From assembly GCA_019694165.1 (NCBI GenBank), contig JAIBCL010000006.1:62001-126000 (forward strand): a stretch of DNA of 64,000 nucleotides. The letters run 5' to 3'. This document shows, in pieces, positions 475 to 17,511 of the stretch; the stretch's first letter is position 1, and each line of letters opens with the position of its first letter. The position numbers and the translations under genes were made by a program. The notes under the pieces were generated by a model that did no database searches, was not told the DNA's origin, and saw only the letters and a program-made list of their open reading frames with translations. The DNA is from Verrucomicrobiaceae bacterium (GTDB lineage Bacteria > Verrucomicrobiota > Verrucomicrobiia > Verrucomicrobiales > Verrucomicrobiaceae).

Positions 475-1134
475 ATGACTGAGAAACTAGACTTCTATGA
501 TGTGATTGGCGTTTTGATTCCAGGAACGGTATTCCTGTGTGCTGGCGCAATCTGCTACCCCTCCCTCGCCAGTCATTTGGCGATTCCTCAGTTGCCCGAG
601 GCATTTGCGGTGATTGCATTGGTTTCGTTGGCCTTATTATGCGGGCATGTGCTCCAATCGCTCGCGAGTTTTATTGAACCATTGATCGAGAAGACTTGGG
701 GCGGACGCACCTCTGAAAAGGCGTTTCGTTCTGGTTTGGGAGAACGCTATCTTCCGAAGGAAAGCGCCGACAGAATCGCTCAAGCGCTTTCAAAAGCGAT
801 GAGTGTGGAAAGCGGCCTGCGGTCAAAGTTTCTCTTTGCCATGCAGATCTCGGAGACAGCGGGCAATTCAAGGGTCGCGAGGTTCAATGCCCTCTATGCG
901 CATTTTCGTGTGCTTCTTGTCATGGCGCTCGTCGTTCTTTTGATGCTGATCCACGCCTCTATGTGGGGGGCTTTACGCTCATGGCCCTGCTCGTCAAAGC
1001 TCGGTGTTTGTATTCTGGCATCAGTGGTTACGGCCTTGTTCTGGAACAGGGCACGCCAGAGGGCAATCTATTATGTCCGAGAAGTTCTCCTGACTGCCGA
1101 ACGCACCCTGCTCCAGCGTCCTGCCAACTCTTGA
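475..1134 (+). CDS. Four-TM membrane protein, first gene of the E2-E1/JAB operon
   Basis: A 219-residue protein with about four hydrophobic segments: roughly residues 9-30 (DVIGVLIPGTVFLCAGAIC), 40-64, 144-165 (VLLVMALVVLLMLIHASMW) and 175-195. A charged soluble stretch of about 70 residues lies between the second and third. The N-terminal pattern, a short polar lead then a helix with a central PG, recurs in small membrane proteins of defence loci, though I cannot name a family. Its stop is three bases before the MBL gene, so it belongs to the same transcript as the MBL, E2-E1 and JAB genes. By analogy with CBASS membrane effectors it may be the toxic or pore-forming part; that is inference. 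AT-richer than the downstream methyltransferase gene. Confidence 0.75.
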   Translation: MTEKLDFYDVIGVLIPGTVFLCAGAICYPSLASHLAIPQLPEAFAVIALVSLALLCGHVLQSLASFIEPLIEKTWGGRTSEKAFRSGLGERYLPKESADRIAQALSKAMSVESGLRSKFLFAMQISETAGNSRVARFNALYAHFRVLLVMALVVLLMLIHASMWGALRSWPCSSKLGVCILASVVTALFWNRARQRAIYYVREVLLTAERTLLQRPANS

Positions 1135-1137
1135 TTT

Positions 1138-2202
1138 ATGACGAACACCGCGCAATCCATGCTCATTCCTCCCTCGACAGACGTCCTGCTTCGAGTCGCG
1201 TTTCTCTATGTGGGCCAAGGCTCCAGTGCGCTTGTGCTCGCTAGAAATGGGTCGTATTACGAAGTCTCACTTGTGGACATCAACATGGATCGCAAAGCGG
1301 GCGGCATTGACGTTCCACGATTGGTTCGAGACTTAATGGGAAATGTGGGCCTGAAATGGTTCATCAACACGCACCCTCACGACGACCACCTTCTGGGCGT
1401 CGAAGCGCTGCAAGAGGAGGTGACGATCCATGGTGTCCAGCATTCCGGCCACAAGCCTGGCAGGCAGTTTCAGGACGCCTACAAGCAACTGGAGAACGTG
1501 ATCAAGAAGGTGAAAGACGATGGCGGCAAAGAGGTTGTGCTGCTGGGAAGCCGGTCCGCTGTGGCATTCGGAGAAGCCCAGATGCATGTGCTCGCACCCG
1601 CTGCCTATGTGACCGACGAGGTGAACGATGAAACCCCCGACACCCGCTACAACCGGATTCACGAACAGTGCGCCGTCATCAAGTTCGGCGATGGTGTTAA
1701 TTGGATCATGATCGCCGGAGATGCCGATCATATCGCATTCAAAGACCACATCACCCCATATCACAAGGATCGGCTTGGGGCGTATGTTCTGGCCGCCTCG
1801 CATCACGGCTCGCGCACCTTCTTCATGGCGAAAGAAGGTGATGATCCCTACTTGGATGCCCTGAATGCAATCTCTCCCTCGTGCGTCGTCGTTTCTGCTC
1901 CAACGCAGAATGAGAGCAGACACGATCACCCGCACGACGAGGCCATGGAACTCTACGAGAATGCCGTGGGCGTTGAAAATGTGCTTCACACCGGGCAGGA
2001 GCGGTTCAGCTACATTTTCGACATCTACGCGGATGGGACTTGCTCGGCAGCACAGCACGATAACGGAAAGCTGGCAGAAGACTACGGTCTGACCGAAGAC
2101 GATGATGACGGCGGCAATAAACCCGACGGCCCGTCAGGGAAAGGCCCCTTCATCTCGACCAGCTCCCGCACGGGCGATCTCTCACCTCGGAAGTTCGGAT
2201 GA
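1138..2202 (+). CDS. ComEC/Rec2-like metallo-beta-lactamase-fold protein with glycine-ended tail
   Basis: A 354-residue MBL-fold hydrolase. Metal-ligand motifs are complete: HPHDDH at 79-84 (the HxHxDH signature), AGDAD at 193-197, and SHHGSR at 221-226. The last motif is characteristic of the ComEC/Rec2 subgroup, thought to act on DNA or nucleotides. The fold appears to end near residue 310. A low-complexity, acidic, Gly/Ser/Pro-rich tail follows (about 318-354) and ends in RKFG, with glycine as the last residue. ATGA overlap with the next gene (2199-2202) implies translational coupling. In type II CBASS, Cap2 acts on the C-terminal glycine of a CD-NTase; here no CD-NTase exists and this protein fills that slot. 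Substrate and conjugation are inferred. Confidence 0.85.
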   Translation: MTNTAQSMLIPPSTDVLLRVAFLYVGQGSSALVLARNGSYYEVSLVDINMDRKAGGIDVPRLVRDLMGNVGLKWFINTHPHDDHLLGVEALQEEVTIHGVQHSGHKPGRQFQDAYKQLENVIKKVKDDGGKEVVLLGSRSAVAFGEAQMHVLAPAAYVTDEVNDETPDTRYNRIHEQCAVIKFGDGVNWIMIAGDADHIAFKDHITPYHKDRLGAYVLAASHHGSRTFFMAKEGDDPYLDALNAISPSCVVVSAPTQNESRHDHPHDEAMELYENAVGVENVLHTGQERFSYIFDIYADGTCSAAQHDNGKLAEDYGLTEDDDDGGNKPDGPSGKGPFISTSSRTGDLSPRKFG

Positions 2203-4046
2203 GTGACGAGCAAGCGGCGCGGCCAACTCCGGAAATCGTCCAGGGGCACGCAGACTTGATTGGCGATTCACGCATCAAGCAGGTGGCCGCTCTTGAAGCA
2301 GTGGAGGGTGGCGCTTGGTCGTTCAAGCTCACCGCTCTGGTCCCGCAGCCCAATGATGAGGGTCTGCCTGCCGAGGTCGTGCTCCGAGCTGTGATTCCTC
2401 CTGACTACCCTTTTGCACCTGTCGAGGTTTTTGCGGAATCACCAGAACTACGCGGCTTCCATCATCAGGACGCCGAGACACACAAGCTCTGCCTGCGCGA
2501 GGAGGGACTGGCACCCTGCAATCAAGACCGGCTGTCACTCTACATGAGTTGGGCGCTCGAATGGCTGTATGACGCGGCCGCTGGACAACTTCTGCCTTCA
2601 GGCCACCCCTACGAGCTTCCCGATTTCAGCCGCAAGCTGCTCAAGGACAAGCCACCCTTCCAGAAAAAGTTATGGTTCTGCGAATCACCGGTATCATACC
2701 CGCATTGGAAAGATCGTCAGGGCCAGACGGGCAAGGTGGAACTGATTGAACTCGCAAATGCTCCGGCTGTTCTGGCAGCTTCGTTCACATTCGGCAAAGA
2801 GGTTATTTGGAAGTTTCCAGTCTCACCAACATTCGATGCCGCCGGCACCAAGACCGAAGGGAGATGGCTGGCGCTCCCCTCTCTGGCATTCTTCCGCAAC
2901 CGGCCGCCTCAGCGATTTGGCGAACTTCGACAAATGTGCGCCACATCCGGCATCGATTTGAATTCCCTGCTGCAAGACCTGTGGGCATCAGACTCTGGAT
3001 CAAGCGTGTGCAGCATCCTGTTGGTTGGCGCTGGCATTCCGCGTATCGCCGGGGAGCCCGCCTATGAGATGCACTGGCAGCCGCTCGCGATCAGGAACGT
3101 GAATTGTGAAGCGGGCCTGAAGGCAGCTCACAAAGGACCGGTCAAACGCCGCAAGGCATGGAGAAAGCTGAAAGCATTGGATCGATTTGCGGACGACACT
3201 GAAATCCCATGGGTATCGTGCGAGAACATCGCTCCAGAGCGTCTGTATTCACGGGGATCGCTCGCTTCCGGCTTCAGGACTCAGAAGATGGCGCTTGTCG
3301 GATGTGGGGCGATTGGTTCCTGTCTCGCCGATCACCTTGTCCGCTCCGGGACTCAGGATTTGACACTGATTGACAAGGAAGACTTCGAGCCAGGCAACCA
3401 CGCGCGTCATGTCCTCACTGGACATTCATTCCAAGTCAGCAAGGCAACAGCCCTGAAGCAACACCTGCAATCTGGCAGCATCCATACGCGGCTGCGCTCG
3501 TTTAGTGTCACGATCCCAAACTTCCGCTCTGCCATCGGGGGCGATGCCTTGGCTGCTCTGCGCGAGTGCGATGTCATCCTGGATTGTTCTGCCCACGAAT
3601 CTGCTTTCCGGTGGTTGAGCAGGTATGGAGCGGACGAGAAAAAGGCAGTCATCCACATGTTCATCTCCTTCGACGCAAGTTTGCTCGTCCTCGTGTTCTC
3701 GGGCAGGGATGTCCCGGCAAGGCTTGCACTCACGAGCTTCGAGCGGCAATCGCTTTCAGGCTCCCTGACAAGTCTGAGTCAGGCAGACCAGGATTTGTAT
3801 TGGCACGATCCTGAAAAGGAACGGTTGGTGATTCCAGGCGCGGGCTGCTGGCACGCCACCTTCCCCGCACGTTGGAATCACATCCAATGCCTGGTCAGCA
3901 CCGCGCTCGACATGATCGAACAGCGGCTTGCCAAACCACAACCGTCATCAGGATTCGTGGCGATTGCGAAGCGCCATGACATAAGCCATACAACACACGG
4001 CTCGACGCCAGTAGTGGAATGGATCTATCGTTCCCCTCACCGATGA
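2199..4046 (+). CDS. E2-E1 fusion, Cap2-like ubiquitin-transfer enzyme
   Basis: A 615-residue fusion in the order E2, linker, E1, as in Cap2 of type II CBASS. The N-terminal E2 domain has the signature PPDYPFAP at 67-74 and a catalytic-type cysteine at 98 in THKLCLREE, followed by YMSWALEWLYD. The middle (about 150-345) is a linker or adaptor region without an obvious motif. The E1/ThiF adenylation domain starts near 363 with GCGAIG at 368-373 for ATP, acidic IDKEDFEPGNHARH at 391-404, and a second catalytic-type cysteine at 550 in GAGCWHATF, where Cap2-type E1 domains carry theirs. Expected reaction: adenylate a C-terminal glycine, then pass it as thioester from C550 to C98. The stop overlaps the JAB start by four bases. 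Confidence 0.93.
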   Translation: MSDEQAARPTPEIVQGHADLIGDSRIKQVAALEAVEGGAWSFKLTALVPQPNDEGLPAEVVLRAVIPPDYPFAPVEVFAESPELRGFHHQDAETHKLCLREEGLAPCNQDRLSLYMSWALEWLYDAAAGQLLPSGHPYELPDFSRKLLKDKPPFQKKLWFCESPVSYPHWKDRQGQTGKVELIELANAPAVLAASFTFGKEVIWKFPVSPTFDAAGTKTEGRWLALPSLAFFRNRPPQRFGELRQMCATSGIDLNSLLQDLWASDSGSSVCSILLVGAGIPRIAGEPAYEMHWQPLAIRNVNCEAGLKAAHKGPVKRRKAWRKLKALDRFADDTEIPWVSCENIAPERLYSRGSLASGFRTQKMALVGCGAIGSCLADHLVRSGTQDLTLIDKEDFEPGNHARHVLTGHSFQVSKATALKQHLQSGSIHTRLRSFSVTIPNFRSAIGGDALAALRECDVILDCSAHESAFRWLSRYGADEKKAVIHMFISFDASLLVLVFSGRDVPARLALTSFERQSLSGSLTSLSQADQDLYWHDPEKERLVIPGAGCWHATFPARWNHIQCLVSTALDMIEQRLAKPQPSSGFVAIAKRHDISHTTHGSTPVVEWIYRSPHR

Positions 4047-4549
4047 AACGCACCACGCCGCCGCTGAAATGGCGATCAAAAGACCGCCTTTACACGGTGA
4101 TCATTTCTCGACACGCGCTGCGGAGAATGTGCAGCATGGCAAAAGACCATTTGCCGAACGAGGTGGGAACCTCGCTCGTTGGCTCCTATTCCGAGGACTG
4201 TTTCACCGCGTTCGTTCTCGACATCGCGCCGCTCCCCGCCGACTCGAAGTCGTCTCCCGTTTCCTTCCTGCGCGGCGTCCGTGGCATGAAGGAGTTCTTT
4301 GAACACCTCACAAAGCGATTTCGAAAAAGACGTTTCTACATTGGGGAATGGCATAGCCATCCTTTTTCCAAACCCGATAGCAGCGATATGGACAGATCGA
4401 CGCACCTGAGAATTGCGCAAGACAGGGCAACGGAGTGCGCTGAGGTCATTATGATCGTCTTTGGCGGCGACTTCGAACAGCACCGTCATCTTCAAGTTTC
4501 GGTGCATTCCCGAGAAAGAGACTTGGTCCTTCTCAACCCCGCCGATTAA
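4043..4549 (+). CDS. JAB/JAMM metallopeptidase, Cap3-like deconjugating enzyme
   Basis: A 168-residue protein from the ATG at 4043, chosen over the upstream in-frame ATG at 4019 because it makes the ATGA overlap (4043-4046) with the E2-E1 stop. It carries the full JAMM zinc-protease motif: glutamate 40 in NEVGTSLVGSY, then H104-x-H106-x7-S114-x2-D117 (HSHPFSKPDSSDMD). Size and sequence fit Cap3-type enzymes, which cleave the bond made by the E1/E2 partner at the C-terminal glycine of the conjugated protein. Last gene of the four-gene operon; the next gene starts 78 bases on. Role in removing the conjugate is known for the family and inferred here. Confidence 0.93.
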   Translation: MKRTTPPLKWRSKDRLYTVIISRHALRRMCSMAKDHLPNEVGTSLVGSYSEDCFTAFVLDIAPLPADSKSSPVSFLRGVRGMKEFFEHLTKRFRKRRFYIGEWHSHPFSKPDSSDMDRSTHLRIAQDRATECAEVIMIVFGGDFEQHRHLQVSVHSRERDLVLLNPAD

Positions 4550-4627
4550 TACCCGGCACAACTAGTCATGGTGGGCTTCGAAATGTAGAATCAAGTCTCG
4601 ACCTCAAAGCTACTCGGAAAGAATATC

Positions 4628-5599
4628 ATGATGAAACAACCATCCGTAAACCGCGCCAAACCCGACCGCTGGAAGGCGGACATTGCGTTGTCGGTGGATC
4701 TCTACAACGCCTGGTTTATGCAGTTCGCACCGGTCACGTTCCGGGAGGCGCGGGTGCGCACGACGAAACAGGTCGAGGACGCGCTCAAGACGACGGCGAA
4801 CCTGACGGACATCAAGCCTGAAACACTGGCTGCGAATCCGGGCGTGCTGCCGATGCTGCGGATGGCGACTTGCCCGCCGCTGGCTCGGGATCGGTTGATC
4901 GGGCTGGCGGGCGTGTCGAAGAATCTCGTGCTGCGGATGGAGGAGGGCAAAATGCCCGTCCGTCTTGGCGCGGAGGCTTCTGCGGCTGACCTCGCGAAGA
5001 TTTCCACCATCATCCGCAAGATGGCCGACCCTGACATCTTCGTGTGGCTGAATCGCAAAGCCGTCGCGACCACCGAAGAGGTCCACCGCGCGGCAACCGT
5101 CGTCGCGGATCGCCTCTGCGGCGCCGTGGCCGATCCCATCGTGCGCAACGCGCAGGAGCGCAGGCAGCTTGAGCTGATCGGCAAATGGCTGGAGGCGCGC
5201 GGCTACCAGAAGCTCGCGGCGGGCGACGGCACAAAGTTCGACGCGATGCCGCCGGGCACTTACAGCTTCCGCATGAACGTGCCGGTGCATCAGGAAGGCA
5301 GCGCGAAGACGGTGAACATCCCGATCGATGCCGTCATCATGCCGAAGTCGGCGAAGAAGAAGGAATTGCCGCTGATGATCGAGGCCAAGTCGGCGGGCGA
5401 TTTCACCAACGTGAACAAGCGCCGGAAGGAGGAGGCACAGAAGATGGCACAGCTTCGCGGCACCTACGGGAAGCAGGTGCGGTTCGCGCTGTTCCTGTGC
5501 GGCTACTTCGATTCCGGCTACCTCGGCTACGAGGCCGCTGAGGGGATTGATTGGGTGTGGGAGCACCGCATCGACGACTTGTCACAGTTCGGTCTGTAG
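4628..5599 (+). CDS. XamI-family type II restriction endonuclease
   Basis: A 323-residue protein recognisable as a XamI-type restriction enzyme, from its beginning (DRWKADIALSVDLYNAWF) to its nuclease core. A PD-(D/E)xK-like active site is visible: D234 in IPIDAVIMPK and E252-A-K254 in LPLMIEAKSAGD. A GGAAAG ribosome-binding site lies just upstream of the tandem ATGs (4628, 4631). The adenine methyltransferase follows 15 bases after the stop, the usual R-M pairing. Founding members of this family cut GTCGAC; the specificity of this enzyme is not readable from sequence. No dedicated controller gene is next to it. GC content is visibly higher than in the preceding operon, suggesting a separate origin. 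Confidence 0.85.
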   Translation: MMKQPSVNRAKPDRWKADIALSVDLYNAWFMQFAPVTFREARVRTTKQVEDALKTTANLTDIKPETLAANPGVLPMLRMATCPPLARDRLIGLAGVSKNLVLRMEEGKMPVRLGAEASAADLAKISTIIRKMADPDIFVWLNRKAVATTEEVHRAATVVADRLCGAVADPIVRNAQERRQLELIGKWLEARGYQKLAAGDGTKFDAMPPGTYSFRMNVPVHQEGSAKTVNIPIDAVIMPKSAKKKELPLMIEAKSAGDFTNVNKRRKEEAQKMAQLRGTYGKQVRFALFLCGYFDSGYLGYEAAEGIDWVWEHRIDDLSQFGL

Positions 5600-5614
5600 C
5601 CTATCGCTTCACCC

Positions 5615-7186
5615 ATGACGACGCTGGAACAGAAACGCCTCGACCTGCTCGCGAAGCTCGATGCCAAGCGGTCGCAGGCGGAGCGCAACCGCATGGGGCA
5701 GTTCGGCACGCCGTCAGCGCTCGCGAGCGAGGTGATGCGCACGGCGCTCGCGTTAATGCCGGAGGGCGAGCGAGTTCGTTTCCTGGAGCCAGGCTTCGGC
5801 ACCGGTGCGTTCTACTCCGCGCTGCTCGATCAAGTGCCCGCCAAGCGCATTGAAGCCGCCGAGGGCTTCGAGATCGATGCGCACTACGGCGACGAGGCTG
5901 TCCGACTCTGGAAAGGCACGCTGCTCGCGCTGCATCAGCGTGACTTCCTCACCACGCCGCCACCCGCCGAGCACGAGCGTTTCAATTTGCTGATCTCCAA
6001 TCCGCCCTACATCCGGCACCATCACATCGACGCGGAGCGGAAGCCGGAGTTGCAACACATGGCCGCGCTGCGCGCCGGGCTGAAGCTCAGCGGCTTGTCC
6101 GGCCTTTACTGCTACTTCATGGCCGCCGCGCACACCTGGATGCGCGAGGGCGGCATCGGCGTGTGGCTCATCCCATCCGAGTTCATGGATGTGAACTACG
6201 GCGCGGAGCTGAAGCGCTACCTGCTCCGCGATGTGACGCTGCTGCGCATCCACCGCTTCGATCCCGACGAGGTGCAGTTCGAGGACGCTCTGGTGTCGTC
6301 GGCCATCGTCATTTTGAAAAAGGAACACCCGTCGCCGCAGCACAGCGTCGAGTTCACCTTTGGCGGCACCTTGACCGAGCCGCGCGTGCGCAAGAGCCTC
6401 CCCGCCGCGCAGCTCGCGGGCGAGCAGAAGTGGACGCGCTTCCCGGTCAACGGCCAGCACGAGCGCCCGCGCCACGTCCTGTCCGACTTCTTCGCCATCA
6501 AGCGCGGCATCGCCACCGGCGGCAACGAGTTCTTCGTGCTGCCCGCCGAGGAGATCGCGCGCCGACGGCTCCCCCGCCAGTTCTTCCGCCCCATCCTGCC
6601 CGGCCCGCGCTGGCTTCAGCAGGAGGTCATCGAGTCCGACGCCGAAGGCGTGCCCGTGCTCGACCGCAGCCTGTTCGTGCTCGATTGCTCGCTGCCGGAA
6701 ACGGAAGTGCGCCGCCGCTTCCCCGCGCTCGCCGACTACCTCGACGAGGGCGTCCGCAACGGCTACCGTGACCGCTACCTGTGCAGCCGCCGCACGCCTT
6801 GGTATAGCCAGGAGCAGCGACCCGCGCCAAGCTACTTCTGCACCTACATCGGTCGCGCCAACACTAAGTCAGGCCGACCCTTCCGCTTCATCCAGAACAA
6901 CTCGCAGGCTATCGCCGCGAACACCTACCTCCTGCTCTACGCCAAGCCCGAACTGGCATCCGCCCTCGAAGCCAACCCCGCGCTCAAAGCCGAAGTCTGG
7001 CGCATCCTCAACGACATCCCGCTCGAAACCCTCGTTCTCGGAGGCCGCGTGTATGGCGGTGGCCTGCACAAGCTGGAACCGAAGGAATTGGCGCAGGTGA
7101 ACGCGGATGAATTGGCGGAGTTGGTGAACGCGCAGCCAAGAGCGAGCGGACGGACGGTGGCGATGCAGGCGGAGCTATCGTTCTGA
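5615..7186 (+). CDS. N6-adenine DNA methyltransferase of the XamI-type R-M system
   Basis: A 523-residue class I SAM-dependent adenine methyltransferase. Motif X-like GQFGTP is at 28-33, the SAM-binding motif I EPGFGTGAF at 58-66, and the catalytic motif IV NPPY at 129-132 (ISNPPYIRHHHI). The large C-terminal part, with NNSQAIAANTYLLLY and a LYAKPEL segment, fits the target-recognition region of Eco57I-like enzymes. It lies 15 bases downstream of the restriction gene on the same strand, so it should protect the host from that enzyme. The N-terminal helix rich in Lys/Arg (residues 1-26) is typical of this subgroup. The gene is complete. Confidence 0.92.
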   Translation: MTTLEQKRLDLLAKLDAKRSQAERNRMGQFGTPSALASEVMRTALALMPEGERVRFLEPGFGTGAFYSALLDQVPAKRIEAAEGFEIDAHYGDEAVRLWKGTLLALHQRDFLTTPPPAEHERFNLLISNPPYIRHHHIDAERKPELQHMAALRAGLKLSGLSGLYCYFMAAAHTWMREGGIGVWLIPSEFMDVNYGAELKRYLLRDVTLLRIHRFDPDEVQFEDALVSSAIVILKKEHPSPQHSVEFTFGGTLTEPRVRKSLPAAQLAGEQKWTRFPVNGQHERPRHVLSDFFAIKRGIATGGNEFFVLPAEEIARRRLPRQFFRPILPGPRWLQQEVIESDAEGVPVLDRSLFVLDCSLPETEVRRRFPALADYLDEGVRNGYRDRYLCSRRTPWYSQEQRPAPSYFCTYIGRANTKSGRPFRFIQNNSQAIAANTYLLLYAKPELASALEANPALKAEVWRILNDIPLETLVLGGRVYGGGLHKLEPKELAQVNADELAELVNAQPRASGRTVAMQAELSF

Positions 7187-7265
7187 CAAATCTGCCGACG
7201 ATTTCGGATTGACTCCGCGTGCGGTTTTCGGCTAGCCATGTAGCTGAACGGAGTTTGCGCCCGTC

Positions 7266-9650
7266 ATGGCCGCGAAATCTACAGCCCCTACTTCCGTCGG
7301 CCCGCCAGCGTGGCTGGGTTTTGGGGGATGCGTTGTCGGCGCGGTCGCCGCTTGCCTGTGGTTTCCGGATTCGGTCTGGCGAAGTATGTTGCCGGAGGTT
7401 CCGGGCCGGTTCTTTCTCCCGGCGTTCGCGTCCGCGTTCGCCGCAGGTTGGCTGTGTGGACTCTGCGGCCCTCGGAATGATTCGCGCGGGACGGAAGGCG
7501 GGGCGCAGTCGCGCGCGTCAATCGCGGGTCTGCTGACCTCGCTCGTGGTATGTATCGCGGCGCAGCGCGCGAGTGGCGGGCTGCGTGGGGTCGGGGTGAC
7601 GCCGCTTTTCGCCGCAGCGTTGCTCGGGTTCGGGCTGTTGCCATCAATGCTCTTCGCCAATCTCGGTGCGGGCCTCTCGCGTCGCGTCCGCGAACGCGAA
7701 TCGTTTCTCGGCGGAGCTTGGGGGAAGCGAGAACGAGTGTTCGCGTTCGCTGCGAGCGCCGTTTTGCCAGCTGCCGCCGTGCTGGTGTGGCCGACGGTTT
7801 ATTTTGCGGACAAGCTAATGGCGAAGGCTGTCGTGGCAGTGCTGCCGGCCGCGCTGCCCTCTCCGCCTCCGAAGCCCGAGCCGCCGAAGCCGCGCTACGC
7901 GAAGCCCGAAGGATTCGACGCGGCCAATGCGTGGAAGCGGGTGGTGCTCAAGGAGGACGTGATCGCTGACGTGGTCGGCGGCTCGCCGTTCGTCCTCTCG
8001 CACCGGGAGGATCGCGTCGCCGCGCTGGTCCGCCGCAACGGGAAATCGTTGCTCGTGGCCCGGCATTTGATCGATCCGGTTGAGGATCGTCAGGTCGAGA
8101 TCGCGGTGGCGGTCGGGCCGATGGCGTGGTCGCCCGACGACCGTCGGCTCATCGCGGCGACCGCCGACGGCGGTTTCGTGGTGATCGATTGGGAGCGCGC
8201 GACTGTGATCCCCCTCCCGATTCCAAAGGCTGATCGGAAGACCTTGAACGACGTGATCTGGTGGCGAGACGAGGACGTAGTGGTGACGTTCCGACAAGGC
8301 CAGCCGCAAGCGCTCTCGCTCGACACGCTGAGGCTGTCGCCGCTGAGCGAACACCCAGTTTGGGCGAAGCTCACCGAAGCCGACCGGAGCCGCGTCTTCG
8401 CGTCGGTTGACCCGCCGCATCCATCGGTGCCGAAGGTGCGCTACGCATTCGCACGCGACGGCGACGGCCTGTCGCTGCTGGCGCGCGACGCGGAAGCGCA
8501 CTACAGCCGTGTGCTGCTCCCCGGCATTTCCTCCTTGCAAGTGGATTTCTGGAACCGCGATGGCAGCATCGTCTTCTTCGCCGAGCGCGAGCGGCTGCGC
8601 ATCCTCTACATGGGGCTGCGCGACGCGCCGACGCTGCGCTTCGCCGCGGAGAGCCGCGAGGGCTTCCCCGCAACCGACGAAGTGAAGGCGGCGATCAAGA
8701 ATCGCACCATCGAGTGCTTCATCACCGAGCCAATCGTCAACCCGCTCAATGGCAAGACCGTCGCTGGCGACGTGGCACACGCAAAAGGCGTGGCCCGTGT
8801 CATTGCTGCCGAGGGGAAGGCTGCGACAATTTGGGTGAGCGAGGAACGCGGGCCGATCCGCGAAGGCGACGTGATCACGCTGCCGCGCGTCGCTTCTCCG
8901 AACGGCGGCGCGCCGCTCTCGCCGACATGGTTCGCGGTGCTTACCAAGGCGGACGCCAGTCAGGACATTCCGCGTCGTGATAGCGAGAAGCCGTCGGCGA
9001 CGACGAACGATGCCGCCACCGCGCCAACTTCCGCCCAGGTGTCGCCCACCACATCGAAGCCCGACGCCCCATCGAGCCGCCCGGTTTACGACGAGCTGAT
9101 GAAGCATAAGGCCGAATGGATGCCAAAGAAGGAGAAGAACGCGCCGTCAGCGGAAACGAAGCCGCCGCAACCATCGTCCGTGCCGCAGACGAAGAGTGCA
9201 AAATCCACTCCCCCGCCGACCTTCGCGTCGAAGGTGCCGCCGCTGAAGGCGAACGCCCCACCCATCGAGCGCGTGAAGCACTTCATCACCCTGCACCACG
9301 CGAAGGTCAGCGACCGTGACATCGACGGTATCGCGGCCGACTACGGGGCCGTCGCACACGTCAACGGCAAGGACATGACCCGCGAGGATGTCCGCCGCGA
9401 CGAGCAGACCGTTACGGCGAATTCGGTCAGCCTCGTGGAGCAGGTGGACGGCCCCATCGCCGTTACCACGCAGCAGAACAGCCGCTACCACGCGGAATAC
9501 GGCATTTCGTTTGAATTGATCACGCGCGACGACAACGGCGGCCAGGGATCGGCGCTGGTGGAAATGGACGTGCTGCTGACCAGCGCGGGGCCGAAGATCG
9601 TCGCCCGCAAGACGCGAGTTTACAAAAAAGGCCCCGCCGGGAAGCGTTGA
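7266..9650 (+). CDS. Membrane protein with beta-propeller-like middle and NTF2-like C-terminus
   Basis: A 794-residue protein of unknown role. The first 190 residues hold about five TM segments, for example WLGFGGCVVGAVAACLWF and LLTSLVVCIAAQ. A proline-rich linker (PSPPPKPEPPKP) leads to about 350 residues that read like a TolB/WD-type propeller: MAWSPDDRRLIAATADGG and similar blades. After a long Pro/Ser/Lys spacer (about 575-665), the last 120 residues resemble an NTF2/SnoaL-like fold (IERVKHFITLHHAKVSDRDI to LVEMDVLLTSAG). The next gene starts two bases after the stop, so the two are co-transcribed. Domain calls rest on pattern only. It sits between an R-M system and a SIR2 pair, so a defence role is possible but untested. 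Confidence 0.7.
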   Translation: MAAKSTAPTSVGPPAWLGFGGCVVGAVAACLWFPDSVWRSMLPEVPGRFFLPAFASAFAAGWLCGLCGPRNDSRGTEGGAQSRASIAGLLTSLVVCIAAQRASGGLRGVGVTPLFAAALLGFGLLPSMLFANLGAGLSRRVRERESFLGGAWGKRERVFAFAASAVLPAAAVLVWPTVYFADKLMAKAVVAVLPAALPSPPPKPEPPKPRYAKPEGFDAANAWKRVVLKEDVIADVVGGSPFVLSHREDRVAALVRRNGKSLLVARHLIDPVEDRQVEIAVAVGPMAWSPDDRRLIAATADGGFVVIDWERATVIPLPIPKADRKTLNDVIWWRDEDVVVTFRQGQPQALSLDTLRLSPLSEHPVWAKLTEADRSRVFASVDPPHPSVPKVRYAFARDGDGLSLLARDAEAHYSRVLLPGISSLQVDFWNRDGSIVFFAERERLRILYMGLRDAPTLRFAAESREGFPATDEVKAAIKNRTIECFITEPIVNPLNGKTVAGDVAHAKGVARVIAAEGKAATIWVSEERGPIREGDVITLPRVASPNGGAPLSPTWFAVLTKADASQDIPRRDSEKPSATTNDAATAPTSAQVSPTTSKPDAPSSRPVYDELMKHKAEWMPKKEKNAPSAETKPPQPSSVPQTKSAKSTPPPTFASKVPPLKANAPPIERVKHFITLHHAKVSDRDIDGIAADYGAVAHVNGKDMTREDVRRDEQTVTANSVSLVEQVDGPIAVTTQQNSRYHAEYGISFELITRDDNGGQGSALVEMDVLLTSAGPKIVARKTRVYKKGPAGKR

Positions 9651-9652
9651 TC

Positions 9653-10345
9653 ATGTTCGGCCTGCTGTCATTCCGAAAGCCCGAAGTGCACAAGCACCAG
9701 GGCACTTACATCGAGGGGTTCGCCATCCCGCCGGACGCCTTCTACAAAGCCGTCGAAGGCGAGATTGCGGCGCTCGGCATCCCAGACATCGCGACGGCGC
9801 GCGTCTTCTACCGCGAGGGCGGGCCGCACACCGCCGAGCGCGAATACCTGCGCGTGAGCCGCGAGCGGTTCGCCTACCTCGTGTGCGCCGCGCCATGGGG
9901 CACGAGCTTCTTCTTCAGCAAGCGGTTCACAGAAAAGACGCGGAGCCTGCGCGTGTGGGAGCTGATCGCGATGCTCATCTTTCTCGCCGGAGCCTTCGCC
10001 GCCTACTGGCATATCCTCGGGTTGGTTTGGGGCATCGTCATTTTCGTTCTCAACCTCATCGCCGCAGCGGTGCTGTGTCGCAGTGTCGTGGACATGGGCT
10101 GGAACTGGCTCGACGACCTGCTCCTGAGCCTGCCCGTCGTCGGCACGTTCTACGAGCTGTATCTGCGCCCCGGAGCCTACTTCCGCGACGACACGCGGGC
10201 GTTGTTCGTGAACCTCGTGGATGCAATCGTTGACCGCCAGATCGCCGCCTTCACCGCTGACACGGACGTGAAGCTCGGCGAGTTCAAAGACCTCAAGCCG
10301 GAGAGCAGGCTGGCGGCGTTTGTGCGGAGGGTGTTGGGGAGCTGA
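9653..10345 (+). CDS. Two-TM membrane protein of unknown function
   Basis: A 230-residue protein from ATG 9653; a TTG at 9647 is an alternative but overlaps the previous stop, and GGGAAG lies about eight bases upstream of the ATG. Two or three closely packed hydrophobic segments lie at about 105-150 (ELIAMLIFLAGAFAAYW, then GLVWGIVIFVLNLIAAAVLC). An acidic C-terminal cytosolic stretch includes a helix rich in VDAIVDRQIAAF. No family recognised. It starts two bases after the preceding membrane-propeller gene and probably works with it. Confidence 0.7.
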   Translation: MFGLLSFRKPEVHKHQGTYIEGFAIPPDAFYKAVEGEIAALGIPDIATARVFYREGGPHTAEREYLRVSRERFAYLVCAAPWGTSFFFSKRFTEKTRSLRVWELIAMLIFLAGAFAAYWHILGLVWGIVIFVLNLIAAAVLCRSVVDMGWNWLDDLLLSLPVVGTFYELYLRPGAYFRDDTRALFVNLVDAIVDRQIAAFTADTDVKLGEFKDLKPESRLAAFVRRVLGS

Positions 10346-10429
10346 TGCACAGAAAACGTTAGCAAGTCATGCTCGACTCCCCAGCGTCCGCCAACATAGA
10401 ATCTCATTCGCCGCAACCAAGAACCACAT

Positions 10430-12262
10430 ATGAAAATCTCCGAATACCCCGACAACACGATAGCTGGCTATTTACCTCGTCTTGTAGCCGAATACGATCG
10501 GGGCCGGCTGGTGCCATTCGTCGGTGCGGGTATCTCGGCACCGAATTGTGCCCTGTGGGGGGAGTTTATCTTCAACCTGGAGAAGGAAGCCGGAATGCGA
10601 AATACGTCCGAGCGATATAAGGCCAACGAAGACGGCTCCTCGAGATTGATCCAACGAGCGGCACGCGCCGTCAGGAAAATCAGGCACTCTCCTTCGATTG
10701 ATTTTGCCGAGGCCGTTCGCAGGTCTCTCGTCCCAGCATGTAAGTCCACCTCTCCCCCACCGGCGACTTCGGCATTGGCGTCAATTCCATGGCCTCTGAT
10801 CCTAACGACCAACTATGATGACTTGCTGCTCTCTGAAATAAACAGCCGGGTAAAGAATTCCGAGTCTTTTGACAGGATGCAGGTTTGTGGGAGAGGGCGT
10901 TCGGATTCTGAAAGAATCGTCAACAGCCTTCATTCACCGGACCAGCCTTTGTTGTGGGCGATTCAGGGGTTCGTTGGTGGGCAGGCATCGCAATCATTTA
11001 CCGACCAGCCCTTCCACAGGGGCGACCTTTCTGAGCTTGCCTCCCAGCTTGTGGTTGGTCATGAGGAATACCGTCGGGAGGCTTTCCGCTCTCATGGTTT
11101 TAGAAGAGCATTTTCCGATGTGTATCGGAACCGGACTTTCCTGTTCGTGGGCAGTGGGCTTTCCGAAGGATATTTCGAGAATCTCTTCGACGAGACAATC
11201 GAATTGCTAGGGGTGGTTCCCCACAATCACTTTGCGATCGTCGAGGAGGGGAAACTGAATCGCGAGACCGTCCGCGAGCGCTTTCAGATCGAATTGATCG
11301 AATACCCGAAGGGACGGAGGGAAAAGGTCGTCGAGTGGGTTTTGAATCTTGAGCACGCCATCCAACACCGGATGTCGAGGTGTGCCGGCTGGGGATTCAG
11401 CCTCAGCTCTGGCAGCAGGGTGGAGCAGGGCGAGAGCCCGGACTTGCAGATCGTGCGCAGCCGTGTCCCTACACCAAAGGAGGACGAGTGCGTCGTGATC
11501 AGCGTCGGCGTGCGCAACGGAAAGCCGCTCTTGGGAAGCGGCGGCGGTGGCATTCTCGGGGCTTTCTCCAAGGCCGATGGAACTTGTCAGTCGTGGTCGA
11601 AGCCACTTGCCAGGAATCCACACGTTTGGCGCTACGGCACATCGTCGGTCTTCGCGGTAGCCGCCAGAACCAACGGCGCGAGCGGCAAAGAGTCCAGAGA
11701 CGCACGCTCGGTGAAGGAGGCAATGGGTTCCGCGCTGAACGTAGTCAAGGACGCAGGATTCAAGCGCGCCTACGCAATGCTTTTGTCGGCAGGTCCGGGG
11801 CGAGTCTTCCCGTCCCACATTTCGTTGATCCAGATGGCGCGCGGATTTGCCGCTTGGAAGCAGGATGCCTGCACCGGGCAACGGAGTCTTGAACTGGTCA
11901 TCTGCGTCGTGGACCCGCGTCCCATAGCGTTGCTATCGTCGGGCCGGCTCAATCTCCAAGAGGTGTTGGCCGTTCCTCACCTTCGATTCTGGGTCGAAAT
12001 AGTGCGCGATGACAACAAGCAGATCGCCAGACATTTGTTGCACGAACTTCCCGACACCCCGCTCACTGCGATTCTCGACAAGTTTGATCTCGGGCATTCC
12101 GGGTGGTCGGCTTGGGTCTTGCCAAGCCCCGTTGCGGGACAAAAGGAAATCCAAGCCCGTGAAGTTTTCGGATACAAGGGCGGTGATCCGTGGACCGTTG
12201 AGAACGCCGGTTTGGTGAGCGGCTCTATTTTGAGAGTCATAATCCGCAAGCCTCGGGCCTGA
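10430..12262 (+). CDS. SIR2-like domain protein, partner of the downstream HerA-like ATPase
   Basis: A 610-residue protein. The N-terminal SIR2_2-type domain has the NAD-binding loop VPFVGAGIS (28-36), the Asn motif LTTNYDDLL (125-133), and the closing FLFVGSGLSEGYFENLFDE (about 237-255). In this family NAD cleavage normally needs the Asn (N128 here) and a His in an HG motif; here the corresponding place seems to read IQG, so His is replaced by Gln179. The C-terminal 280 residues are a separate region with LLSAGPGRVFP and LELVICVVDP, faintly like a macro or related nucleotide-binding fold; I do not assign it. The HerA-like gene starts 27 bases after the stop. Base composition is clearly AT-richer than its neighbours, suggesting recent transfer. 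Confidence 0.85.
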   Translation: MKISEYPDNTIAGYLPRLVAEYDRGRLVPFVGAGISAPNCALWGEFIFNLEKEAGMRNTSERYKANEDGSSRLIQRAARAVRKIRHSPSIDFAEAVRRSLVPACKSTSPPPATSALASIPWPLILTTNYDDLLLSEINSRVKNSESFDRMQVCGRGRSDSERIVNSLHSPDQPLLWAIQGFVGGQASQSFTDQPFHRGDLSELASQLVVGHEEYRREAFRSHGFRRAFSDVYRNRTFLFVGSGLSEGYFENLFDETIELLGVVPHNHFAIVEEGKLNRETVRERFQIELIEYPKGRREKVVEWVLNLEHAIQHRMSRCAGWGFSLSSGSRVEQGESPDLQIVRSRVPTPKEDECVVISVGVRNGKPLLGSGGGGILGAFSKADGTCQSWSKPLARNPHVWRYGTSSVFAVAARTNGASGKESRDARSVKEAMGSALNVVKDAGFKRAYAMLLSAGPGRVFPSHISLIQMARGFAAWKQDACTGQRSLELVICVVDPRPIALLSSGRLNLQEVLAVPHLRFWVEIVRDDNKQIARHLLHELPDTPLTAILDKFDLGHSGWSAWVLPSPVAGQKEIQAREVFGYKGGDPWTVENAGLVSGSILRVIIRKPRA

Positions 12263-12289
12263 TGTGCCGTCATCGAATTGCGACTTTGA

Positions 12290-15200
12290 ATGAGCTGGCT
12301 CGACGACGCTTTGACGGATCAGTTCTACCGCTGGGAGCTGCGCGGGCGGGGGTGGCAGTTGTTCGACGGGCCGGTGTCCATCGAGCCGCCGTTCCGGCCG
12401 TTCTTCGGACACTACCTTCCGAGCGATGACCGCGCCGGGGCGGACACCGGCAGACGACACACGATGGCGAGCGCGCTGATCGAAGGCGTGCGCGGACTCA
12501 TCGCTCCGCCTGTCGAGCGAAAGACGCATGACACTGCGGACGACGAACCGGGGCCGTTCTACGAGGAGCGCGGGGATATGGTCGAGGTGCAGATCGCGCT
12601 CCCCGATGTGAAGGGGGTGAGATTCGACGCGGGTGGGGCATGGCTACTCTCGCTGTCGGCGTGCCGCGAGCCGGTGGCATTCGAGCTGGTGGGCACCTCA
12701 CGGGAGATCGTGGCGCAGTTCGCGGCGGGCGTGGATGATGCCGGGATACTCGCGCGGCAGATCGCGGCACACTTCCCCGGCGCGCAGACCGCCGAGCAGC
12801 GGGGATACCTGACCGGGCGGAGGCTGGAGGCTGGCTCGGAGATTGCGGCGATCGAGATCGGCCTCGGCGACCTTTTCATGGTTCCGCTCGCCGCGCCGTC
12901 GAGCGACATTTTCGTGAGCATGGCCGCCGCGATGGACGGCCTCGCGCCGGACGAGCTGGCGGTATTCCAGGTGATCTTCGAGCCGACGCGCCACGCATGG
13001 GCGGAGAGCATCCTTCGGTCAGTGACCGACAACGCTGGCGGAGCGTTCTTCGCGAACCGTCCGGAGCTGGTGAAGCAGGCGCGGGAGAAAATTCGTGCGC
13101 CGCTCTTCGCCGCCGCCGTGCGGATCGCCGCGTTCGCGGACGACGAAGAACGGGCGCACCATCTGTGCCGCAGCATGGCGTCGGGCCTCCGCGCGTTCGA
13201 GCGGGTCGGGTGCAACGAGCTGATCGCGCTCGACGGCGACGGCTACCCGGACGGCGCGCGCGAGGAGGACATCCTGCGCCGCCAGAGCCGGCGGACGGGG
13301 ATGCTGCTCAACGCGGAGGAGCTTTCCGCGTTCGTGCACCTGCCGACGAGCGCCGTGGCGTCCGCGAAGCTCCGCCGCGACTCGGGGCGCACGCGGCCCG
13401 CGCCCGCGCACCTGACGGAAGCGGCGGACCTTTTGCTCGGCGTGAACGTCCACGCGGGCCAGGAATCCGATGTGTGGCTGAGCGCGGACCACCGCGTCCG
13501 GCACACGCACGTCATCGGCGGCTCGGGCTACGGGAAGACGACGTTCCTCTTCAACTGCATCCGCCAGGACATCGAGAACGGCCACGGGTGCGGGCTGCTC
13601 GATCCCCACGGCGACCTTGCGGACCGCGTGCTCGAATTCATCCCGCGCGATCGGGCCGACGACGTAGTGCTCGTCGATCCGACCGACGAGGAGTTCTCCG
13701 TGGGTTTCAACGTGCTCGCCGCGCACAGCGACTTCGAGAAGGATCTCATCGCGTCCGACCTCGTCGCCGTGTTCAGACGCCAGAGTTCATCGTGGGGCGA
13801 GCAGATGGAGAGCGTGCTCCACCACGCGATCATCGCCTTCCTCGAAAGCTCGCGCGGCGGCACGCTCGCGGACTTGAAGAACTTCCTGCTCGATCCGGGG
13901 ACGCGCGCCGAGTTCCTCAAAACGGTGCGGGACCCCGACGTGGTCTTCTACTGGAAGAAGGGCTTCCCGCAGCTCGGCGGCACGCGATCCATCGGCCCCG
14001 TGGTCACGCGGCTGGAGAAGCTGCTCGCGCGGAAGCCGGTGCGGCGGATGGTGTCGCAGCGCGCGAGCCGGCTCGACTTCGCGGGCATCATGGACGGCGG
14101 CAAGATTTTCATCGCGAAGCTGCCGCAGGGGCAGATCGGCGCGGAGAACGCCTACCTCCTCGGCACGCTGCTCGTGTCGAAGTTCCAGCAGATGGCGATG
14201 GCGCGGCAGCGGTTGCGCGAGGAGGAGCGGCGGCCCTTCTTCCTCTATGTGGACGAGGCGTCGAACTTCTTCGCGCCGTCGATGGCGGAGATTCTGTCGG
14301 GCGCGCGCAAGTATCGGCTGGGCCTCGTGCTCTCGCACCAGAACCTCAGCCAGCTCAAGGCCGAGACGGAGGTCGCCGGGGCGCTCGACGCGAGTGCCTG
14401 CACGCGCATCGCGTTCCGCGTCGGCGACCATGACGCGCGGGCGCTGGCCGAAGGCTTCTCGCACTTCGAGCCGCGCGCGTTGCAGAACCTCGACGTGGGC
14501 GAGGCAATCTGCCGCGTGGAGCGCAGCGACCACGATTTCAACCTGACGATGCTGCCGCCCCTTGGGCCTTTCGAGGGCATCGAATACGCGGCGCGAGAGG
14601 AGGTCGTGTCGCGCTCGCGGGCCGCCTACGCGACGCCGATTGCCGAGATTGAGACGGCGATGCGCGGAACTGCGGACGACTCGAACGCTGATGACCAGAG
14701 CGAAAGCGAGGAGACGGAGATTACGTCGGCAAGAGGCGATACCGCAGAGCCGGAAGAGGCAGCAGCAACCACAGCAGGCAACGAGGTCGGAGAAGAGCGG
14801 GTGCGCGCCGCGCCAACGGCAGTCGCGGGCGATGTGCCGATCGCTGCGCAGCTCCCAACGAGAACCTACTCCCCCACCGAGGTACGGGCCGATATTGAAT
14901 CGCTGGGCCGGGGCGGCGAGTTGCACCGCGCTGCGCAGCACGAATTGAGATTGCTCGCCGAATCGCTCGGCTTCCGCGCCACCATCGAGCGGCAGATTCA
15001 GGGCAGCCTTGAGACGGTGGACCTCCACTTGCAGCGCGACGCCACCGAGATCGGCTGCGAGGTAACGGTCACGAACACGCTCGACTACGAGGTGCGCAAT
15101 GTGCTCAAGCTCATTCGGGCCGGGATGCAGTCGATCGCGATGGTCGCGCTTGATGTGGACAAGCTCGCCAGACTGGAGCCGGCCATCCGCAACAGTTTAT

Positions 15201-15445
15201 CGCCCGAAGACAACGCGAGGGTGCGCTGCTTCTTGAAGGAGCAATTCATCGAGCACCTTCAGTCCCTCGCGCTCGCCGATCCGCCGCCGCAAGAGCCGCC
15301 GGTTGCGGGCGTGGCGCGCAAGGTGAAGGGCTGGACCGTGAAGCGCACGGTCGTCGAACTCAGCCCCGAGGAATTGAAGCAGCGGGAGGCCGAGATCGCC
15401 GCCGCCATCGCCGACAACATCCGCCGCAAAGCCTCGAAGAAATAG
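12290..15445 (+). CDS. HerA/VirD4-like ATPase with C-terminal nuclease-like domain
   Basis: A 1051-residue protein. Residues 1-400 are a specific N-terminal region without clear motifs. A DUF87/TraG-type ATPase core follows: Walker A GGSGYGKT at 410-417, GLLDPHGDL soon after, Walker B FFLYVDEAS around 650-658, and LVLSHQNLSQL as sensor region. An acidic linker (about 790-830) precedes a small domain at about 870-1000 resembling restriction endonuclease-like folds: D911 in VDLHLQR and GCEVTVTN with E924-V-T926, where a Lys would be expected instead of T926. SIR2 plus HerA pairs are known anti-phage systems; this protein is longer than usual for the HerA partner and carries the extra domain. 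The gene is very GC-rich compared with its SIR2 neighbour. Confidence 0.87.
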   Translation: MSWLDDALTDQFYRWELRGRGWQLFDGPVSIEPPFRPFFGHYLPSDDRAGADTGRRHTMASALIEGVRGLIAPPVERKTHDTADDEPGPFYEERGDMVEVQIALPDVKGVRFDAGGAWLLSLSACREPVAFELVGTSREIVAQFAAGVDDAGILARQIAAHFPGAQTAEQRGYLTGRRLEAGSEIAAIEIGLGDLFMVPLAAPSSDIFVSMAAAMDGLAPDELAVFQVIFEPTRHAWAESILRSVTDNAGGAFFANRPELVKQAREKIRAPLFAAAVRIAAFADDEERAHHLCRSMASGLRAFERVGCNELIALDGDGYPDGAREEDILRRQSRRTGMLLNAEELSAFVHLPTSAVASAKLRRDSGRTRPAPAHLTEAADLLLGVNVHAGQESDVWLSADHRVRHTHVIGGSGYGKTTFLFNCIRQDIENGHGCGLLDPHGDLADRVLEFIPRDRADDVVLVDPTDEEFSVGFNVLAAHSDFEKDLIASDLVAVFRRQSSSWGEQMESVLHHAIIAFLESSRGGTLADLKNFLLDPGTRAEFLKTVRDPDVVFYWKKGFPQLGGTRSIGPVVTRLEKLLARKPVRRMVSQRASRLDFAGIMDGGKIFIAKLPQGQIGAENAYLLGTLLVSKFQQMAMARQRLREEERRPFFLYVDEASNFFAPSMAEILSGARKYRLGLVLSHQNLSQLKAETEVAGALDASACTRIAFRVGDHDARALAEGFSHFEPRALQNLDVGEAICRVERSDHDFNLTMLPPLGPFEGIEYAAREEVVSRSRAAYATPIAEIETAMRGTADDSNADDQSESEETEITSARGDTAEPEEAAATTAGNEVGEERVRAAPTAVAGDVPIAAQLPTRTYSPTEVRADIESLGRGGELHRAAQHELRLLAESLGFRATIERQIQGSLETVDLHLQRDATEIGCEVTVTNTLDYEVRNVLKLIRAGMQSIAMVALDVDKLARLEPAIRNSLSPEDNARVRCFLKEQFIEHLQSLALADPPPQEPPVAGVARKVKGWTVKRTVVELSPEELKQREAEIAAAIADNIRRKASKK

Positions 15446-15504
15446 CGGGGCGTGTGCAGATAGATTGTTGATTTGCTCGCTCTCTTCGCCATTATCAACG
15501 CGCG

Positions 15505-17058
15505 ATGAATGCTTTGCCAATTAGCGACAATTCCAGCAGGCGGGCTGCCATCTGGATCAGGGTATCGAGCGAGGAGCAGGCCCAGGGCGACAGCCCCGCG
15601 CACCACAAGGCCCGCGCCGAAATGTATTGCGCCTCGCGCGGGTGGCAGGTCGTGGAGGTTTACGACCTCGCGGGCGTGAGCGGCAAGAGCGTGATGGATC
15701 ACCCTGAGTGCAAACGCATGATGGCGGACGTGCGGCGCGGCCACATACAGGCGCTCGTCTTCTCGAAGCTCGCCAGGTTTTCGAGGAACGCCCAGGAACT
15801 CATGGCCTTCAGCGAATTCTTCCAGCAGAATCACGCCGATCTCATTTCACTCAGCGAGAGCATCGACACCAGCTCGCCGGCGGGCCGGTTGTTTTTCAAC
15901 CTTGTCGCGAGCATGGCGCAATGGGAGCGCGAGGAGATCACCGACCGCATCAAGAGTTCGGTGATGGTGCGCGCGAAGCTCGGCAAGCCGCTCAGCGGCA
16001 AGGCTCCGTATGGCTACAAGTGGAAGGACAAGAAGCTCGTCGTCAATCGCGACGAAGCGCCCGTGCGGCGGATGATTTACGAACTCTTCGACCAGCACCA
16101 GCGCATCAAGACCGTGGCGCGCATTCTCAACGAGCGCGGCTACCGCACGCGCATCGGCAAGCAGTGGTCCGACATGGCGGTGCGCTTCCAGCTCAAGGAC
16201 CCGACCGCCAAGGGCATTCACCGCCGCAACTACACGCGCAATCAGGGTCAGGGCAAGACGTGGGCGCTCAAGCCGGAGAGTGAACACATCTTCAACGAGG
16301 TGGAAGCCGTCGTGCCCGCCGAGCTGTGGGAGCGGTGCAACAAGATCCTCGATGGCCGTTACATGAAGCGCGAGCGGCCCGCGAAGAAGCCCGCGCATTT
16401 GTTCTCCGGCTTCGTCGTCTGCGCCTCGTGCAAGCGGCCTATGTATGTGCCCACGCGCAGCCCCAAATACACCTGCCAGAAGTGCCGGAACAAGATTCCG
16501 TGCGCGGTGCTCGAAGATTTGTTTTTGGAAGAGGTGAAGGACTACCTCATCAACCCCGCGAACGTGAAGAGCTACCTCGCGAAGGCGGGCGAGGCGCTGG
16601 CCGAGCGCCAGGAACTCCTCGGCCAGCGGCAGAAGGAAGCCGCCAAGATTAAAGCCGACACCGACCGGATGCTCCGCCTCTACCTCGACGGCAGCGTGAC
16701 CTCGGAGCAGTTCAAGCAGTTCAACCAGCCGCTCGTGGACCAGACGAGGCAGGTCGATGACGAAGTCGGCCGCCTCCAGTCGGAGATCGACATCCTCAAG
16801 ATCGACTCACTGAGCGGCGAGCAGCTCGTCGCCGAAGCGCTCGACCTCCACGCCCGCTGGCCGACGATGACGCCCGACGAGAAACGGCGAGTGATCGAGC
16901 AAATGGTGCGCTCCATCGAAATCGGCGACGGCGAGGCGAACCTCCACCTCATCCAACTCCCCTCCTATAAAGAAATTACAAATTGGCAAAATACGTATCG
17001 TCGTGCGAATACGGCGGTGCGCAGCTGCAGAGGAAGCGAAGGTGCTCGCCGGCGGTGA
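15505..17058 (+). CDS. Large serine recombinase, probable integrase of the island
   Basis: A 517-residue large serine recombinase. The catalytic domain opens with WIRVSSEEQ (nucleophile Ser21) and has FSKLARFSRN and MAQWEREEITDRIKSSV. The recombinase DNA-binding domain follows (PYGYKWKDKKLVVN, VARILNERGYRT), then a zinc ribbon at about 305-327 (CASC and CQKC), then a leucine-rich coiled coil (ERQELLGQRQKEAAKIKAD). The final 28 codons, after about 16,975, overlap antisense coding DNA of the cupin gene and look like host sequence read by chance. This is expected if the integrase lies at the end of an integrated element. Family role: site-specific integration and excision. Confidence 0.92.
   Translation: MNALPISDNSSRRAAIWIRVSSEEQAQGDSPAHHKARAEMYCASRGWQVVEVYDLAGVSGKSVMDHPECKRMMADVRRGHIQALVFSKLARFSRNAQELMAFSEFFQQNHADLISLSESIDTSSPAGRLFFNLVASMAQWEREEITDRIKSSVMVRAKLGKPLSGKAPYGYKWKDKKLVVNRDEAPVRRMIYELFDQHQRIKTVARILNERGYRTRIGKQWSDMAVRFQLKDPTAKGIHRRNYTRNQGQGKTWALKPESEHIFNEVEAVVPAELWERCNKILDGRYMKRERPAKKPAHLFSGFVVCASCKRPMYVPTRSPKYTCQKCRNKIPCAVLEDLFLEEVKDYLINPANVKSYLAKAGEALAERQELLGQRQKEAAKIKADTDRMLRLYLDGSVTSEQFKQFNQPLVDQTRQVDDEVGRLQSEIDILKIDSLSGEQLVAEALDLHARWPTMTPDEKRRVIEQMVRSIEIGDGEANLHLIQLPSYKEITNWQNTYRRANTAVRSCRGSEGARRR
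16965..17000. other. Probable attachment-site junction of the island
   Basis: The serine recombinase frame passes here from its own coiled-coil end into sequence that is coding on the other strand for the cupin C-terminus. The cupin ends PPYSHDDT then YFANL, whereas related proteins usually end right after the SHxDT block, so the last codons may come from the element. This places a crossover near 16,976-17,000. No matching left copy can be seen because the left end of the island lies outside the window or is too short to recognise. Confidence 0.35.
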
Positions 17059-17335
17059 TCTGATGCCATGACCCGGCGGGGATTAGGATGGCGTCGCCTT
17101 CTTTGATGTCGCGCGTCTCGCCGTCGATCTCCATCACGCCGTGGCCCGCGAGGATGAAATAGAATTCCTCGGCGAGTTTGTGGTAATGGCGCTGGGTGGA
17201 GCTGCCGGTGGGCACGGTGGCTTCGGCCAGTGACTGATTCTTCACCGGCGCATTCGTGCGGTCGAGGATGCTGCGGATGGTGCTGCCGTCCTTGGTGATG
17301 AAGGGCTGCTGGAGAGACAGGTGATTGATGATCAT
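16976..17335 (-). CDS. Single-domain cupin protein
   Basis: A 119-residue protein starting MIINHLSLQQPF (17,335 preferred over 17,386, which only adds an atypical lead). The cupin barrel has both motifs: HYHKLAEEFYFILAGHG with metal-binding His and Glu, and GDAILIPAGSWHQI with the second His. It ends in PPYSHDDTYFANL. Small cupins of this kind bind a metal and act as isomerases, lyases or dioxygenases; the substrate cannot be told. Its 3' end overlaps the antisense end of the serine recombinase gene by 83 bases and was probably the integration target of the island. Confidence 0.85.
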   Translation of the reverse strand: MIINHLSLQQPFITKDGSTIRSILDRTNAPVKNQSLAEATVPTGSSTQRHYHKLAEEFYFILAGHGVMEIDGETRDIKEGDAILIPAGSWHQITAGEHLRFLCSCAPPYSHDDTYFANL

Positions 17336-17511
17336 GGCTCGCAGGACTAATTCATTCCACGCCTCGTCTTGATGGCAAGCAGTCATCAGACTGATGAGAG
17401 ACCGCTCATCGAGTCTCCTCCGACCAAAGAAGTATTCGACATTGTTTCAGGTTCGCCGCCGAGGTGTAAATTTCCGTCGCTTCCGAGTGTCGAATCTATT
17501 TTGATCGCCTT

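Follow-up and report, generated by a model that had tools for sequence, protein, structure and literature searches.

Judged from genome sequence, comparison with homologous loci shows that a SIR2-domain gene lying directly upstream of an ATPase gene in the window (the whole stretch of 64,000 nucleotides of Verrucomicrobiaceae DNA that was analysed, to which all positions refer) has been inserted between two genes that are conserved as a pair in an integrative element. The encoded SIR2 protein is probably a cargo effector of weakened or altered activity carried inside this element, and the neighbouring ATPase would not be its partner. An initial annotation of this DNA had described a SIR2-like gene 27 bases upstream of an ATPase gene, and both open reading frames were confirmed (10430..12262 and 12290..15445, both on the plus strand, encoding 610 and 1051 aa). 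Its reading of the two as a SIR2-HerA pair acting as one system, however, is not supported by the comparison: the constant partner of the ATPase is a different gene, here called F5, and both proteins seem to fit other classes better.

The region would represent the right-hand end of an integrative mobile element, with a conserved end apparently made up of F5, a soluble VirD4/TrwB-like ATPase carrying a PD-(D/E)xK-fold tail, and a serine integrase. Comparison with other loci shows that a 1.94-kb segment bearing the SIR2 gene entered between F5 and the ATPase.

The junction between F5 and the ATPase

Relatives of the ATPase were collected by a scan of genome contigs (one genome per species), which yielded at least 509, and 80 loci were fetched. 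Gene neighbours were taken from homology-labelled maps of mechanically called ORFs; most of the loci come from metagenome-assembled genomes, and neighbourhoods were readable for up to 10 kb per side, depending on the contig. The locus counts given here leave the window itself out. Of the 78 homologous loci with upstream sequence, 71 have F5 as the gene directly preceding the ATPase, and in 64 of these 71 the gap between the two genes fell between -20 and 30 bp. In 49 of 85 loci a serine recombinase followed the ATPase within four genes, while a SIR2 gene was found near the ATPase homologue in none of the 85.

In the window, F5 (9647..10345, plus strand) encodes a small membrane protein of 232 aa and is preceded by a further conserved element gene, F7 (7266..9650, plus strand; 794 aa), homologues of which lie directly upstream of F5 in four loci, one of them in the same genome (L006) and the others being L021, L060 and L061. 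Hydropathy analysis placed four hydrophobic segments within the N-terminal 180 residues of F7, which gave no Pfam match over the cut-off and belongs to no assigned family.

The same genome encodes a paralogous ATPase, 45% identical to that of the window, at a locus that has F7, F5 and a serine recombinase and is without a SIR2 gene. This second F7-F5-ATPase-recombinase set (L006; G000:C19:226000-245000) is located on the same contig. The junction between F5 and the ATPase measures 3 bp both in this paralogous locus and in the closest homologue (L021), as against 1,944 bp in the window (10346..12289, plus strand), where it holds the SIR2 gene. GC3 likewise sets the SIR2 gene (0.656) apart from F5 (0.871) and the ATPase (0.874), and on the strength of this base composition we consider the segment to have been acquired most likely by horizontal transfer. 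A weak promoter-like site is present inside the inserted segment, at 10373-10402. A few other loci also carry genes between F5 and the ATPase, which indicates that the junction can take up insertions. At L092:8331-9978, a ParA-like ATPase and a HEPN-like gene occupy the same junction as an independent insertion.

The SIR2 protein and its altered active site

The SIR2 protein matches the SIR2_2 family (PF13289; E = 1.9e-16) and has PADLOC matches to LmuA and ThsA. Its structural model is reliable over roughly residues 7-320, which make up the SIR2_2 domain, and of low confidence beyond. Structural superimpositions with VIA-align, covering 257-276 residues, related this domain to those of ThsA (Z 22.6; for BcThsA, 276 residues at an rmsd of 3.3), DSR2 (22.2), KomC (21.3) and FAM118B (20.7), with which it shares the fold, the GAGxS and TTNxD motifs and an acidic residue. 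The SIR2 chains of SIR2-HerA gave Z values of 12-14; their fold is the same, but ThsA, DSR2 and KomC are closer. In the window protein, the shared motifs are represented by GAGIS at 32-36, by TTNYD at 126-130, which includes the catalytic Asn128 (codon at 10811..10813, plus strand) and bears out the earlier observation of an intact LTTNYDD motif, and by E246, the acidic residue of the G-x-S-x-x-D/E motif, where 23 of 29 relatives have Asp and one has Glu.

The window protein departs from ThsA, DSR2, KomC and FAM118B in having QG for HG. The sequence IQG is found at 178-180, with Q179-G180 standing where the HG motif is expected (Gln179 codon CAG, 10964..10966, plus strand). When 18 SIR2_2 proteins of the phylum were aligned with it, Q179 fell on the column of the catalytic His; in a second alignment, with 29, that column held His in 24 and Leu or Ile in five, with Gln in none of these relatives. 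None of the protein's own His residues falls on the catalytic column. The initial annotation had named a His at that site, for example from the 165-220 region, as what would overturn its assignment of Gln179 to the His-Gly site, and the assignment therefore stands. The CAG codon is one transversion away from a His codon. The five relatives with Leu or Ile form a single degenerate subfamily (L041, L042, L043, L045 and L049), in which the Asn is also replaced, by Trp, and which is presumably non-catalytic.

PaAvs5 (AVAST type 5) has a SIR2 domain in which the HG motif is changed at this very residue and the other motifs are retained, as they are in the window protein. PaAvs5 has an NG variant that is needed for defence, and exchange of this residue for Gln or Ala abolished protection (PMC12931631). 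These results provide a precedent for a working non-His site and, at the same time, speak against a working Gln in PaAvs5. The window protein differs from PaAvs5 in having Gln instead of Asn, and it lacks a detectable STAND ATPase domain. We infer from its residues that it should still bind NAD, and that with its catalytic His replaced by Gln hydrolysis would probably be poor or nil unless the chemistry has adapted. A divergent catalytic setup, which the initial annotation had suggested, may still apply to the SIR2 protein alone; the accompanying proposal that one activity had moved to the additional domains found no support.

A further difference from ThsA, DSR2, KomC and FAM118B lies in the C-terminal half of the protein (about residues 330-610), which has no assignable fold and gave no Pfam, PADLOC, PHROG or PDB sequence match; when checked for a ThsA-type SLOG domain, it returned a low-confidence prediction and no family match. 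Two other identities for this half were considered. A macro domain, suggested by eye from a glycine-rich loop, received an HHalign probability of 0.06% against 18 macro sequences and nothing from Pfam, and was dropped. A PurN-like formyltransferase, suggested by weak matches (window 11690-11900), was without Pfam support and probably reflects chance, the HHalign probability of 84% being circular, since the sequences had been picked for matching the query and their PurN identity was our own reading. There is also no TIR or other known partner nearby: the ten ORFs scanned from 475 to 17058 contain no TIR domain such as that of Thoeris ThsB.

Searches for orthologues of the SIR2 protein covered 387 genomes of the phylum, viral contigs, plasmids and genome contigs and returned none; the scans of viral and genome contigs were pattern-based and detect close relatives only, so that distant orthologues could be missed. 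From its SIR2 domain and its neighbours, we regard the protein as cargo, an effector of the same type as ThsA, DSR2 and KomC whose role is probably defensive, bearing in mind that the cargo of other elements is mixed.

The ATPase and its nuclease-fold domain

The gene product at 12290..15445 is a genuine ATPase, as the initial annotation had it; within the proposed HerA/VirD4 likeness, the VirD4/TrwB class fits it better than HerA does. The best family match is PF10412 (TrwB_AAD_bind; E = 7.4e-9) and TraG-D_C was also matched, while no match to DUF87 (HerA) was obtained at E<=0.1 (the paralogue has a weaker one). Matches in PADLOC, to mad8 (E=3e-16) and weakly to DndH, fall on the generic ATPase core only. 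The Walker A residues G410, G413, G415 and K416 and the Walker B pair D655-E656 are invariant across 86 homologues. PF10412, TraG-D_C and the Walker motifs are thus held in common with VirD4/TrwB coupling proteins, from which the window ATPase differs in lacking an N-terminal transmembrane anchor within the chain, in having a separate small membrane partner in F5, and in possessing a long N-terminal region together with a C-terminal PD-(D/E)xK-fold domain. A hydrophobic segment is absent from 84 of the 86 long ATPases.

The C-terminal domain (14885..15442, plus strand) comprises residues 866-1051, which were aligned with 37 homologues and modelled with a mean pLDDT of 88.7 (about 97 in the core). 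It is predicted to adopt the alpha-beta-beta-beta-alpha-beta PD-(D/E)xK fold, and Foldseek and VIA-align led to PD-(D/E)xK structures with Z values of 8-11, the best being AF1548 (11.0), followed by Can2 and FokI (9-10). The core is common to these nucleases and the ATPase tail, and H879, E900, D911, E924, E934 and K940 are invariant in the 38 aligned sequences of the domain. D911 and E924 are conserved, in contrast to the Lys of the ExK motif, which is missing family-wide. The initial annotation had correctly recognised a domain like a restriction nuclease with Thr926 in place of this Lys (E924-V-T926; codon at 15065-15067, plus strand). We rejected the idea that Thr926 is a mutation of the window ATPase alone, since the substitution is a rule of the family: position 926 is Ser in 49 of 86 sequences, Thr in 19, Ala in seven and Cys, Asn, Gly or Pro in the remainder, and never Lys. 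Lys940 (codon at 15107-15109, plus strand), which is Lys in 80 of the 86 homologues and lies on the following helix, may take the role of the missing residue.

The integrative element and the role of its genes

Downstream of the ATPase lies a gene for a large serine recombinase (15505..17058, plus strand) with Resolvase, Recombinase and zinc-ribbon domains (PF00239, PF07508 and PF13408), which identify it as a large serine integrase (phrog_95 integrase, E=3e-111). Its 3' end overlaps by 83 bp the 3' end of a convergent chromosomal cupin gene (16976..17386, minus strand), which the integrase of the element would thus abut and which is the probable integration site. The cupin gene was found in 20 of 24 relatives, and a convergent cupin overlap of 83 or 89 bp recurs in six further elements, which points to a recurrent site of integration. 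A short-repeat search for att sites gave only matches of 12-14 bases, and no empty site was readable, the flanking DUF1800 gene and the left-flank genes being in other contexts in relatives. Further genes on this contig, to the left of the window and on the left side of the element, encode a short VirD4-like ATPase, Replic_Relax, a DnaG-like primase, ArdC and a tyrosine integrase.

Other cargo occupies 475..7186 on the plus strand. A Csx27-like membrane protein, an MBL-fold protein, an E1-E2 protein and a JAB protein follow one another in a row at 475-4549 and resemble a defence operon of the 6A-MBL type; a XamI-like restriction endonuclease is found with an Eco57I-like methyltransferase at 4628-7186 (GC3 about 0.85). 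Elsewhere in the window, a single ORF of 3208 aa runs along the minus strand (29473-39099). The cargo of other elements is mixed, whereas the F5-ATPase module is constant with the integrase. Elements of this family were seen in Verrucomicrobiota, Acidobacteria, Planctomycetes, Nitrospirota, Bacteroidetes and candidate phyla, and no description of an element with this gene set was found in the literature searched.

Of 71 F5 homologues, 55 have two hydrophobic segments (the window F5 has one over the threshold used), which, together with the absence of such segments from nearly all of the ATPases, suggests a split, membrane-anchored translocase. The ATPase, anchored to the membrane by F5, would most likely pump or process the DNA of the element there. 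More broadly, we tentatively suggest that F5 and an ATPase with a nuclease-fold tail could together form a split coupling-protein module, widespread among integrative elements and undescribed. In this view, a DNA translocase held at the membrane, with a PD-(D/E)xK domain whose Lys is displaced, would move or process element DNA, and the operon junction of the module would also admit cargo, for example a SIR2 effector whose active site has QG.

Other readings of these genes have to be set against that of a cargo SIR2 effector. The same module might itself serve defence or the exclusion of other elements while being carried by the integrase, with the SIR2 gene as one more defence gene beside it. 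The mad8 and weak DndH matches of the ATPase, its nuclease-fold domain and the defence-type cargo upstream are all consistent with this; we nevertheless think it somewhat unlikely, given that the PADLOC match is limited to the generic ATPase core and that a part which stays constant with the integrase while the cargo varies is better fitted by a role in transfer or maintenance. That the SIR2 and ATPase genes form a genuine two-gene defence system divergently related to SIR2-HerA, with the ATPase assembling with the SIR2 effector and regulating it, appears very improbable. The genes do share a strand and a short gap, the SIR2 domain is confirmed, and the ATPase has a nuclease-fold tail and is a member of the broad HerA/FtsK superfamily, so that the likeness to SIR2-HerA consists in a SIR2-type gene beside a gene for an ATPase of that superfamily. 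Yet the association is not conserved, with F5 as the constant neighbour of the ATPase and a SIR2 gene in none of 85 loci; the genes contrast in GC3; and each component seems to fit another class better, the SIR2 domain being much less similar to that of SIR2-HerA and the ATPase being VirD4/TrwB-like. A local functional link between the two proteins may have formed after the insertion, since co-transcription would be compatible with the order of the genes and the 27 bp between them.

The remaining alternative concerns the activity of the SIR2 protein, which by analogy with Avs5 might be catalytically active as an NADase, its QG site representing a new type. All other motifs of the NAD site are kept, and the NG motif of PaAvs5 demonstrates that the His is dispensable in some SIR2 domains (PMC12931631); against this, changing the Asn of PaAvs5 to Gln abolished protection (PMC12931631), QG occurs in none of the 29 relatives, and a recent loss, one transversion from a His codon, fits as well. 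We hold such an activity to be unlikely, and prefer the reading of a SIR2 effector that is weakened or altered, inserted as cargo into the end of the element.

The case illustrates how the insertion of cargo can produce a striking two-gene neighbourhood, and it removes a false variant of SIR2-HerA. It also points to an apparently undescribed and widespread family of elements. Finally, with the NG domain of Avs5 for comparison, the QG SIR2 domain makes it possible to test directly to what extent SIR2 effectors tolerate replacement of their catalytic His.
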